From Blepharisma japonicum (Eukaryota > Ciliophora > Heterotrichea > Heterotrichida > Blepharismidae): 64,000 nucleotides of DNA. A program made the position numbers and the translations under genes. Position 1 is the first letter of the stretch; the number at the start of each line of letters is the position of its first letter. The stretch is taken from the NCBI GenBank assembly GCA_949751835.1, contig CATKHK010000060.1, positions 186,001 through 250,000 on the forward strand, read 5' to 3'. Below, in pieces: positions 40,471-62,933 of the stretch. The notes beneath the pieces were generated by a model. It was not told the DNA's origin. It ran no database searches and saw only the letters and a program-made list of their open reading frames with translations.

Positions 40471-40542
40471 TTAATTTCATTAAATATCGAAGAAATTTGT
40501 ATGAATTATTATTAATTAGAGATGGAAAATAGATAATAAAAA
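40471..40542. other. Spacer containing tRNA terminator
   Basis: Short AT-rich spacer. It holds a run of five A at 40538-40542, which on the minus strand is the TTTTT stop signal of RNA polymerase III directly after the tRNA. Confidence 0.6.
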
Positions 40543-40629
40543 CGCTCAGAAGGGCGAATCGAACGCCTGAGGCGCTAGCCTCCCTAGGATTTGAAGTCCT
40601 AGCCAGGCACCAGCCCAGATCATCCAAGC
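40543..40629 (-). tRNA. tRNA-Sec: Selenocysteine tRNA, anticodon TCA
   Basis: On the minus strand an 87-nt sequence folds as a eukaryotic tRNA-Sec. It has a 9-position acceptor stem (GCTTGGATG with CTTCTGAGC, one T-T mismatch at position 8 as in the vertebrate tRNA), a 6-bp D stem closed by a TGGT loop, an anticodon stem CTAGGA/TCCTAG with loop CTTCAAA (anticodon TCA), a long variable arm GAGGC-TAGC-GCCTC, a 4-bp T stem with loop TTCGATT, and discriminator G. The 9/4 arrangement, the 4-base D loop, the CTAGCG variable-arm segment and the total of 87 nt match known tRNA-Sec and distinguish it from tRNA-Ser and tRNA-Trp. No intron. TTTTT follows directly. All stems are intact, so it does not look like a pseudogene. 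Confidence 0.92.
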
Positions 40630-40650: not shown

Positions 40651-40661
40651 TGATATATACA
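40651..40661 (-). promoter_or_regulatory. TATA-like element upstream of tRNA-Sec
   Basis: On the minus strand GTATATATCA lies about 22-32 bases upstream of the first tRNA base. Animal tRNA-Sec genes have an upstream TATA box near -30; the position here agrees. The spacer is AT-rich, so chance occurrence is possible. Confidence 0.4.
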
Positions 40662-51468: not shown

Positions 51469-53079
51469 TTAATGTATAGCATCATGTAGCAGGTAGTAGG
51501 TTGCTGTAGCATGGTTGAGTTCATTGCAGTTTAATGAATTCAAGACAAAATTTTTTGGGAAACCACAAGCCACCACTTTTTCTAATATAAAATCATCAAC
51601 TTTGAATCTTTTTTCTCGAGATGGCTCGATGTTTCCTATAAATCGTGGGGAAACGCTTTCTTCTTCAGTTTCGTCTGATGCTCGGAATCACGGATGCCTT
51701 AATAAAGTGTCTAATGGGATTCTGTTGTGTGGGACAAGCTGCAGCATGCTTCTTATCATGTCCTTGGCGTTTTCACTTAAATAATCTGGAAGATTGTATT
51801 TTCCTGTCAAAATCAGCTTGTTCAGTTCTGGAATACTGTGAGCCTTAAATGGAACTGTTCCACACAGCATCGCATATGCCAAAATTCCTAAGCTTCAAAT
51901 GTCTGCCCAAAATCCTTCATATCCTCTATCTACAATGATTTCAGGGGCTAAATAGGCAGGAGTTCCACACTGCTCATTAATAATTTGTCCTTTTTTTACA
52001 AGTTTACTTACCCCAAAATCACAGATTTTGCAGCAAGAATACTGTGAGTCTAATAAAATATTATCAAGTTTAAAATCTCGATGCAAAACCCCATTTTCGT
52101 GAATCTCAATTGCACCTTCTATAATTTGTCCAAAAATTCTCCTCGCTTCGTTTTCTGTTAGCCTTCCCTTTTGCTTTACAAATTGCAATAAATCTCCACC
52201 TCCTGCATATTCCATGACAATCAAAAAATGCTTCGAGCTTTCGAAAACTTCGAAAATTTTAACCACATATTTGTTTCTGATTTTTTTCAAAATATACACT
52301 TCTTGGAATACTTTTCTCTTTGCGTGCTCATTTCTAAGTTGGGCTTTTTCGATGGTTTTTATTGCTACATTCATTCCTGTTAGCTTATGGACTCCTAGCA
52401 AAACCTTTCCAAAAGCTCCTTTTCCTATCATTTTTCCAATTTTATAAAAATCTAAGGTTGTTGGTGGGTCATCTAAATGTTTGGCGAAATAACTTGAAAT
52501 ATAGCTCACCAGCTTTTCCTTTTCTTCTTCTTGTTCTTGAAAAGACCCTGCTGAGACATTCAGGTTTTCATAAAAGTGTGTTGGTGTGTGTCTTTCTTGC
52601 AACAAACTTTGGTTGACTTCTATCATAGATTTGTCGTTTTTAGAATTTATTGGAGTATTTTTTTGAAAAGAATTATTTCCATTTCGTCTTGATACTGACC
52701 GTATCTTGAAGATACTGCTTATTTTATCCGAAACAACTCTTCTGTGTCCAGGTTTTGAGGTTTGTTTAGGAGTTAGCTCTGGACTTCGTGCAGGAGTCCG
52801 AGATTGTCGATCAGGAGTGATCTCCTTTCAGCCTTCGATTCTCTTTTTTACGTATTCATGAAGGTCGTTGTGTGCTGGGGGTTGAATTTCAATTGCAAGA
52901 TTTTTAATTATTCTTGTTGTGACTGGGCTGGTCTTTTCGCTCTTCGATATTCGGCGCCCTTCATCTTTAGTAGAAATTCTGATGCGGTTGCCAACCTTAA
53001 GGAATTCTTTTGATGCTTTTGAAGCTGGCTCAGCGAAGTCTTGGCTAGATCCATGAGCCCTGATTTTCCTTTTAAACAT
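51469..53079 (-). CDS. SNF1/CAMK-like Ser/Thr kinase with C-terminal UBA-like segment
   Basis: 536 residues with UGA as Trp; TAA is at 51469-51471. The first 190 residues are basic and rich in Ser, Thr and Pro, so likely disordered and phosphorylated. The kinase domain covers residues about 195-450: GKGAFGKVLLG, VAIKTIEK, HRDFKLDNIL (Phe in the loop), DFGVSK, GTPAYLAPE and DIWSLG, whose Trp is a UGA. After the domain a segment (ILEKVVACGFPKN...ATATYYLL) resembles the UBA-like domain that follows the kinase domain in SNF1/MARK-type kinases. The group regulates polarity and energy state, but no specific ortholog can be named. Convergent with the orphan gene and divergent from the CH-domain gene (99 bases). 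Confidence 0.88.
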
Positions 53080-61478: not shown

Positions 61479-62933
61479 ATGGGTTGCTGTAACTCAAAAG
61501 TTGAATCTCCAGAGAAAAAGCCAAATCCAAGCCTTCCTCGCCCCAAGACCAAGAAAAGCTTCAGTAAAGCTGACTTCATTTCTCAAAAGAAAGGTTCAGT
61601 CGAAGACCATTATACAGTCTTAAAAAAGTTAGGAAGCGGCGGCTTTGGTACAGTTTATCAAGTGATTGACAAGCGAACAGATATAGAGAGAGCCATGAAA
61701 GAGTTATTGAAGTCTAAAATGACCCAGGAAGCAAGTGCGCAGATGCTTTCTGAGGTTGAAATTTTACGTAATTTAGACCATCCTAATATCATGAAAGTTT
61801 ATGAACTTATTGAGTCAAAAAAAAATTATTACATAATAACTGAATTTTTAACTGGTGGCGATTTGTTCGAAAAAATTGTTAAAGACCAAGGCTTAAGCGA
61901 AAAAAATGCAGCTGAATATGCGTATGGGTTTATGAGAGCTATTAATTATTGCCATAAGAATGGCATTGTCCATAGAGATTTAAAGCCTGAAAACTTGCTG
62001 CTTGAAAGTACAGAGCCAAATGCTAAAATTAAAGTCATTGATTTTGGGATTTCTCAAAAATTACAGCCAAACCATAAGCTTAGACAAGCTGTTGGGACTA
62101 TTTTTTATATGGCGCCTGAGACTTTTGTAGGGTCTTATGATGAAAAATGTGATATATGAAGTGCTGGGGTTATTTTGTATATGATGCTTTGTGGGTCTCC
62201 ACCATTTTATGCTGAAAAACCTGATGATATGCTTCAAATTATTAATAATGGCAATTTGAATTTCAAAGAATCAGCTTGAAAATCAATATCAGAGAATGCT
62301 AAAGATTTAATCCGAAATATGCTATCTGTAAATCCAATACAAAGATATAGCGCTGAACAAGTATTAAATCACGCTTGGTTTAAAAACTATATTAACAATG
62401 AACTTCCTCAAACTTCACTAAGCATCGAAGCTTTAGGAAACCTCAGTAAATTCAATGCCCAAGGTAAACTTGAAAAATCAATCATGACCTTCATTAGCTC
62501 ACAAATCACCAGCATCCAAGAAGACCGAGAATTTGCAGATTTATTCAGTAAGATGGACAAAAATAAGGATGGAAAATTAAGTCAAAGGGAAATTTTGGAT
62601 GGGTATAAGGAGCTAGGAATAACAACGCCACCTGGGATATTAGAAATTTTGAAGAAAATCGATAGTGATGGAAGCGGGTTTTTGGATTATACGGAATTTG
62701 TGACAGCTTCTAAGAATTGGAAGAAAGCGTTTGAAAAAAATGAACTGGAAAGCGCATTTAAGATTTATGACCAAGGAGGAGATGGAAAACTGTCACTTAA
62801 AGAGCTGAAAGACAGCATCCCTGATATAGAAGATTCAGAGTGGGAGAAATTTTTGGCTGAAGCCGATGAGAATGGGGATGGGCAGATTGGTTTTGAAGAG
62901 TTGAAAACTTATTTAATGCAAAAAGTATCTTAA
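61479..62933 (+). CDS. CDPK: Calcium-dependent protein kinase (CDPK)
   Basis: 484 residues with UGA as Trp. The N-terminus MGCCNSK fits N-myristoylation (Gly2) and palmitoylation (Cys3, Cys4), so membrane attachment is likely. The kinase domain covers residues about 45-305: GSGGFGTVYQV, ERAMKELLK, HRDLKPENLLL, DFGISQ, GTIFYMAPE and DIWSAG, whose Trp is UGA (62157-62159). A junction helix follows, then four EF-hands: DKNKDGKLSQREI, DSDGSGFLDYTEF, DQGGDGKLSLKEL and DENGDGQIGFEEL. In the third, position 3 is Gly in place of Asp/Asn, so it may bind calcium weakly. CDPKs of ciliates and apicomplexans couple calcium to motility and secretion. Confidence 0.95.

Follow-up and report, generated by a model that had tools for sequence, protein, structure and literature searches.

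Can a single codon specify tryptophan throughout a nuclear genome and, at the same time, selenocysteine (Sec) in a few mRNAs? The question is raised by a 64,000-nucleotide stretch of DNA (the window, by which that whole stretch is meant hereafter), in which a tRNA-Sec gene with a UCA anticodon lies among open reading frames (ORFs) with in-frame UGA codons. From sequence analysis of the window and of the genome searched (45,185,585 bases, or 45.2 Mb, in 224 contigs), we consider it very probable that this tRNA-Sec functions in a ciliate in which UGA means Trp, with SECIS elements directing Sec to the UGA codons of a thioredoxin reductase (TrxR) and a glutathione peroxidase (GPx), and with Trp inserted at UGA elsewhere.

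The tRNA-Sec Gene

The locus contains the following features.

40543..40629, minus strand: tRNA-Sec(UCA) gene, 87 nt with a G discriminator (ARAGORN and Rfam RF01852)
40592..40594, minus strand: UCA anticodon of the tRNA-Sec (ARAGORN and sequence letters, TCA at 40594-40592)
40538..40542, minus strand: TTTTT run 3′ of the tRNA-Sec, a Pol III-type terminator (read from the sequence)
40654..40659, minus strand: TATATA at −30 of the tRNA-Sec, a possible upstream promoter element (sequence)

ARAGORN, a check suggested in the sequence-only reading of this DNA, called a single tRNA in the window, tRNA-SeC(tca) at 40543-40629 on the minus strand, and every structural detail claimed in that reading—an intact 87-nt gene with a 9/4 arrangement, 6-bp D stem, long variable arm, TCA anticodon, and TTTTT terminator—was confirmed. 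The acceptor stem has 9 bp, pair 8 being a U.U mismatch, and the other helices are a 4-bp T stem, a 6-bp D stem, a 6-bp anticodon stem, and a 5-bp long variable arm; the marks of eukaryotic tRNA-Sec (9/4 arrangement, D stem of 6 bp, long variable arm, UCA anticodon, and G73) are all present. The covariance model RF01852 matched 40544-40629 on the minus strand over model positions 1-91 of 91 with 75.6 bits (E 1e-13), well above its gathering cut-off of 47 bits, and this was the single Rfam match over gathering score in the entire window. The window tRNA is a real tRNA-Sec(UCA) gene. That it might instead encode a suppressor tRNA for Trp or Ser that decodes UGA through a UCA anticodon is hardly credible: UCA does pair fully with UGA, and no other UCA tRNA was found, but the structural marks and the full-length match to RF01852 are those of tRNA-Sec, and the tRNA-Trp genes found are separate, with a CCA anticodon and a 4-bp anticodon stem.

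A genome-wide search with RF01852, in which 53 of 1545 first-look candidates were scored, gave ten matches, with the window tRNA-Sec alone over the cut-off. The other nine scored 46.5 or 39.9 bits, and the seven of these that were fetched proved to be tRNA-Ser (six) and tRNA-Leu (one). A TATA promoter specific to tRNA-Sec was considered and rejected, TATAWA being present between −32 and −36 in 9 of the 22 other tRNA genes compared. The position of the element in the one tRNA-Sec gene (−30, versus −32 to −36 elsewhere) may reflect a different transcription start.

UGA as a Tryptophan Codon

On the evidence of aligned sequences, the nuclear code is one that reads UGA as Trp, as had been claimed for the whole window, kinase Trp sites included. 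The 22 ORFs of at least 250 aa, taken from 39 listed ORFs of at least 150 aa, contain 74 UGA and 79 UGG codons (UGA 74/153 of Trp codons), and end with UAA (17) or UAG (5), UGA being barred as a stop by the way in which the ORFs were constructed. In two kinases, in-frame UGA codons were aligned with Trp.

62157..62159, plus strand: UGA in frame in a CDPK-like kinase, at its kinase Trp site (DIWSAG), aligned to W in PDB 3lij_A
62277..62279, plus strand: second in-frame UGA of the same CDPK-like kinase (AWKS / EWKN), aligned to W
51895..51897, minus strand: UGA in frame in a SIK/MARK/AMPK-like kinase, at its kinase Trp site (DIWSLG), aligned to W in PDB 8r4o_A
51688..51690, minus strand: in-frame UGA of the same SIK/MARK/AMPK-like kinase (HPWF / HKWM), aligned to W

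Elsewhere in the genome, the SecS gene carries UGA in an alignment column occupied by Trp in PDB SepSecS 3hl2, and the NIEQW motif is encoded with UGA in two of three eRF1 paralogues and with UGG in the third. Among five Rdx-like paralogues, the Trp of one conserved site (HxWC) is UGA in two (L039 and L040) and UGG in three (L035, L041, and L042). The Rdx family, with ten matches, was also considered as a source of SelW/SelT selenoproteins and was rejected as such, the UGA codons of L039 and L040 lying at this Trp site with its UGG paralogues. In both genes UGA lies beside Cys, so that a program searching naively for selenoproteins could mistake them for such.

Genes for Selenocysteine Synthesis and Insertion

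A genome lacking the whole Sec machinery, which the sequence-only reading had named as the mark of a relic, was not what the searches for SecS, eEFSec, SPS2, and SBP2 found; all four (with selenophosphate synthetase for SPS2) are present. SecS matched PF05889 with 425 bits and PDB 3hl2 with an E of 3.9e-119, 394 of the 395 searched residues being aligned. Its gene contains a 15-nt GT-AG intron with an in-frame TAG inside, excision of which restores the frame; the intron sits after the RP of ALKPQRP and fits a gap in the PDB alignment. eEFSec has the GTPase, euk_SelB_III, and eEFSec_4th domains (PF21208, PF21131), and was aligned with PDB 5izk (E 4.9e-135), as was a second, C-terminal stretch. 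Its score with TIGR00475, 234 bits, is slightly under the cut-off of 242.25, none of the 31 matches of that search being over it. Selenophosphate synthetase (SelD; TIGR00476, 213 bits) is of the Cys form (MKGCSCKVPQ), with Cys in the position that is Sec in human SPS2.

SBP2 was recognized as one of ten L7Ae-family matches in the genome, its best PDB match being SECIS Binding Protein 2 (E 4.2e-21), with the alignment of residues 149-291 extending into the stretch before the L7Ae domain. The search for PSTK, also proposed in the sequence-only reading, yielded a candidate and not a firm assignment: one of seven KTI12-family matches (L073) is likely PSTK, as judged by its best NCBIfam hit (selen_PSTK, 47.6 bits, far under the curated cut-off of 290.5) and by its top match in PDB, an L-seryl-tRNA(Sec) kinase (E 7e-8).

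Selenoprotein Genes

Four selenoprotein families (GPx, TrxR, SelD, and Rdx) were searched, and among these only two selenoprotein genes were found, one for TrxR (L025) and one for GPx (L021). The TrxR gene matched TIGR01438 with 661 bits and has the 3′ end GC-UGA-G-UAG, with the UGA aligned to the last residue but one of PDB chains 1h6v and 2zz0 (rat and human enzymes), which end in GCCG. Eight other TIGR01438 matches were obtained, and the four examined (L026-L029) end without a GC-UGA-G tail. GPx is encoded by eight genes (L017-L024), with, by eye, a catalytic Cys in seven and UGA in one; in the latter, L021, the catalytic stretch is NVACE-UGA-GLTTKNY, and the UGA is aligned with a Cys of PDB 2v1m. 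The family has at least eight genes, and the surroundings of the catalytic Cys are diverged in L018, L022, and L024.

Selenophosphate synthetase and SelT are selenoproteins in many eukaryotes. Here, both selenophosphate synthetase and a SelT-like protein (L038) carry Cys; in the SelT-like gene, the codon is one for Cys and not UGA, by eye.

Could these genes be foreign, having come from a standard-code contaminant together with the tRNA? DNA from food or symbionts can enter ciliate assemblies, but such an origin for the tRNA or the Sec genes is extremely improbable, with the tRNA-Sec flanked, on a contig of 305 kb, by ORFs that contain 1 and 9 in-frame UGA codons, the SecS gene containing both its 15-nt intron and UGA at a Trp column, and the Sec-GPx gene having seven paralogues in the same genome.

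Apart from the Sec codon, neither selenoprotein gene uses UGA: of their Trp codons, 0/5 in TrxR and 0/1 in Sec-GPx are UGA, versus 74/153 in the window. An effect of selenoprotein status on Trp-UGA usage was rejected as an explanation, since the paralogues are alike, with 0/10 in the four reductase paralogues and 0/7 in the seven GPx paralogues when counted in the GPx frame (the single UGA of L020 falls in an upstream extension that is itself doubtful). The base 3′ of UGA is G at both Sec codons and at 19 of the 74 Trp-UGA codons; the Gly after Sec is conserved in TrxR and GPx proteins, so no conclusion is drawn from this G.

SECIS-Like Hairpins

The 3′ regions of the TrxR and Sec-GPx genes each contain a hairpin composed of helix I, GUGA, 11 nt, AA in the apical loop, and helix II, with GA on the 3′ side in both. 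From the stop codon to the GUGA core downstream, the distance is 27 nt in TrxR and 13 nt in GPx; in TrxR, 33 nt separate the core from the Sec codon. A small additional stem can form after the AA of the TrxR hairpin, which is thus form 2-like, whereas the GPx hairpin, with no extra stem after AA, is form 1-like.

How often such hairpins arise elsewhere was gauged with a descriptor of our own, shaped after both hairpins had been seen, so that its numbers are optimistic. Scanning the window and 77 loci (651,268 bases over both strands, with overlapping loci not removed) gave 34 distinct hits, five of them scoring ≤ −13.5, two of which are the TrxR and GPx hairpins. The remaining three are not located at ORF 3′ ends; all of them equal or surpass the GPx hairpin in score, and one is better than both hairpins. 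Within 150 nt behind 412 ORF 3′ ends (mechanical ORFs of at least 80 aa in six frames, duplicates from overlapping loci not removed), seven hits were found, the best two being those of TrxR and GPx, and none of the seven lying in the two UGA-bearing Rdx-like loci, which served as a control. When each 150-nt 3′ region was dinucleotide-shuffled 3000 times, 13 (GPx) and 6 (TrxR) shuffles gave any hit, and none gave one as good.

Rfam SECIS_1 (RF00031) gave no match in either 3′ UTR at E up to 10, and none over the cut-off genome-wide among the 133 of 1292 candidates scored; its sole genome match (19.4 bits, E 9) was dismissed as chance, lying, by eye, inside a protein phosphatase-like frame. The fold energies of the hairpins are only moderately better than those of shuffles (z −1.35 and −1.53), and when the TrxR piece is folded freely, part of the core becomes paired. 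A covariance model built from the TrxR hairpin was tried and abandoned, having missed the GPx hairpin, which even with the filters switched off scored 6.8 bits and in the wrong register. SECIS elements with a GUGA_AA core have been described for certain green algae and for a sponge (PMC3473315), and share with the present hairpins a non-AUGA core and an apical AA. The search of the 3′ UTRs has supplied candidate GUGA_AA SECIS elements behind TrxR and GPx, and not the absence of such elements that had been named as a sign of a relic. In the green algae and sponge with GUGA_AA, in contrast to the UGA-as-Trp code here, UGA is a stop codon.

These findings bear on whether the tRNA-Sec is a leftover, with the TrxR and GPx UGA codons now read as Trp. 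This is very unlikely in our estimation. UGA is indeed Trp elsewhere in the genome, but the five pathway protein genes (PSTK being only likely) keep open frames, that of SecS after removal of the intron; both UGA codons are at catalytic Sec/Cys positions, with Cys there in seven of the eight GPx genes; and TrxR and GPx carry the two best SECIS-like 3′ ends among those scanned. The tRNA-Sec gene thus does not look like a relic, because the genome keeps the Sec machinery and at least two genes in which UGA apparently serves as a Sec codon. The dual meaning proposed for UGA, Trp and Sec, is accordingly supported at the level of the genome, by the machinery, the SECIS-like hairpins, and UGA at Sec sites.

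tRNA-Trp and a Proposed Division of UGA

The anticodon and anticodon stem of tRNA-Trp, which the sequence-only reading had suggested checking, were examined with a pattern search (CCA or UCA anticodon, up to three mismatches). The 14 matches comprise six tRNA-Trp, five tRNA-Arg, and three tRNA-Cys genes. All six tRNA-Trp genes found are identical in sequence, separate from the tRNA-Sec, and have a CCA anticodon and a 4-bp anticodon stem, with an A.C mismatch at the first pair; no tRNA-Trp(UCA) was among the 14 matches. The tRNA-Sec is the sole UCA-anticodon tRNA found. Readthrough of UGA in trypanosome and yeast reporters increases with the 4-bp tRNA-Trp of Blastocrithidia or Condylostoma, and Blepharisma and Loxodes are also stated to have a 4-bp tRNA-Trp (PMC13092985). 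Since the six tRNA-Trp genes found are all of the CCA type with a 4-bp stem, Trp at UGA is probably inserted by near-cognate pairing of tRNA-Trp(CCA); a UCA tRNA of other tRNA origin, or an edited UCA tRNA, is a possible alternative reader of UGA.

A division of the codon between the two tRNAs can then be proposed. Sec-tRNA would be made by the route from Ser through PSTK and SecS, with selenophosphate from the Cys-type synthetase. In the TrxR mRNA and one GPx mRNA, the GUGA_AA SECIS of the 3′ UTR would recruit SBP2, eEFSec, and Sec-tRNA, and UGA would be read as Sec; ordinary UGA codons would be read as Trp by the near-cognate 4-bp tRNA-Trp(CCA), as published tRNA work suggests. Sec-tRNA is carried by eEFSec instead of eEF1A, and eEFSec works together with SBP2 on mRNAs that contain a SECIS. 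This would answer the question, raised in the sequence-only reading, of why ordinary UGA codons receive no Sec. The less obvious question is that of the reverse leak, namely how Trp-tRNA stays off the Sec codons. At these, the rival of Sec-tRNA would be Trp-tRNA more than the release factor, and failed Sec insertion would give a full-length, Trp-substituted protein.

We also put forward, as a conjecture that is more likely wrong than right, that keeping Sec shaped how UGA became Trp. A UCA Trp-tRNA on eEF1A, had it arisen, would outcompete Sec-tRNA at every Sec codon, while a CCA tRNA that is only near-cognate, and weak because of its 4-bp stem, would leave the UCA-UGA match to tRNA-Sec alone. 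Here, as in Condylostoma, Blastocrithidia, and Amoebophrya so far as the accessible parts of the published accounts extend, tRNA-Sec occurs with tRNA-Trp(CCA), and no UCA form of tRNA-Trp was found. Against the conjecture, one report gives Euplotes a tRNA-Cys(UCA) alongside its Sec system (PMC4967479), whereas another gives it only a Cys-tRNA with GCA (PMC4695839, in the part available). If Sec retention did shape the code, selenium shortage would yield Trp-substituted, not truncated, TrxR and GPx.

Known Systems with Two Meanings of UGA

In Euplotes, UGA means both Cys and Sec. As proposed here, one codon has two amino acids between which SECIS chooses, the general meaning there being Cys and not Trp. 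Euplotes, for which the Cys/Sec use of UGA is cited in PMC12153298, had been thought in the sequence-only reading to be the only comparable case, which is wrong: in the accessible portions of the respective papers, a Trp/Sec dual UGA is given for Condylostoma magnum and Parduczia (Swart et al., 2016; PMC4967479), Amoebophrya (PMC6394959), and Blastocrithidia (PMC12153298). Trp/Sec dual use of UGA is thus already known in a few other protists, and the system described here appears, from genome evidence, to be an added case.

In Condylostoma magnum and Parduczia sp., as here, UGA is both Trp and Sec, and the Sec codon of TrxR shortly precedes the SECIS (here 33 nt to GUGA); a tRNA-Sec(UCA) was found in C. 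magnum. In these ciliates, UGA is also a stop, giving it three meanings, and UAA and UAG are Gln (PMC4967479), whereas here UAA and UAG end genes. Blastocrithidia spp. likewise use UGA for Trp and Sec and keep tRNA-Sec and the Sec toolkit (PMC12153298), together with a tRNA-Trp(CCA) having a 4-bp anticodon stem (PMC13092985). They differ in reading UAR as Glu and in having SelK, SelT, and SelTryp as selenoproteins, SelTryp using UGA for both meanings; here, the selenoproteins found are TrxR and one GPx, both without Trp-UGA, and the SelT-like gene has Cys, unlike Blastocrithidia SelT. In Amoebophrya sp. ex Karlodinium veneficum, UGA is Trp and tRNA-Sec is the sole UGA-complementary tRNA found, both as here, and a SECIS was found in selT; unlike here, UAA and UAG are also reassigned, and the likely selenoproteins are selT, selM, and selO (PMC6394959).

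For Blepharisma itself, the legend of a TrxR alignment in PMC4967479 lists a transcript from a sample labelled B. japonicum. Beyond that alignment, no Blepharisma Sec system is described in the available parts of PMC4967479 and PMC4695839, and Blepharisma is absent from the main text of a study of ciliate GPx (PMC7409322).

Significance

The present analysis locates the genetic components for a Trp/Sec use of UGA in a heterotrich lineage, one that has cultured members, and competition between a near-cognate Trp-tRNA and a SECIS-directed Sec-tRNA becomes directly testable, with less competition from termination than usual if UGA is no longer a stop. Moreover, UGA alone cannot mark selenoproteins in such genomes, as illustrated by the two Rdx-like genes that use Trp-UGA beside cysteine.

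Release Factors and Host Lineage

Introns as short as 15 nt are typical of heterotrichs. A search for the eRF1 domain gave four matches, three of them eRF1 (L069, L070, and L071) and the fourth (L068) Pelota-like by eye. One of the three copies, L069, has the motifs KSSNIKS and YICDNKF, which are tabulated for three Blepharisma species in PMC4695839. The host would thus appear to be Blepharisma or a close relative, because of these L069 motifs and the 15-nt SecS intron.

Published accounts of the B. japonicum factor diverge: assays suggest that it recognizes all three stops (PMC4967479), whereas PMC4695839 has it recognizing UAR only. Termination may therefore still compete at UGA, given the former assays; in the same study, none of the B. 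japonicum UGA stops appeared to be genuine (PMC4967479). The copies L070 and L071 are diverged, with SATSIKS and a UGA-coded N-terminal Trp, and L070 has YICNNVF; judging from their motifs, the three eRF1 paralogues may differ in stop recognition.
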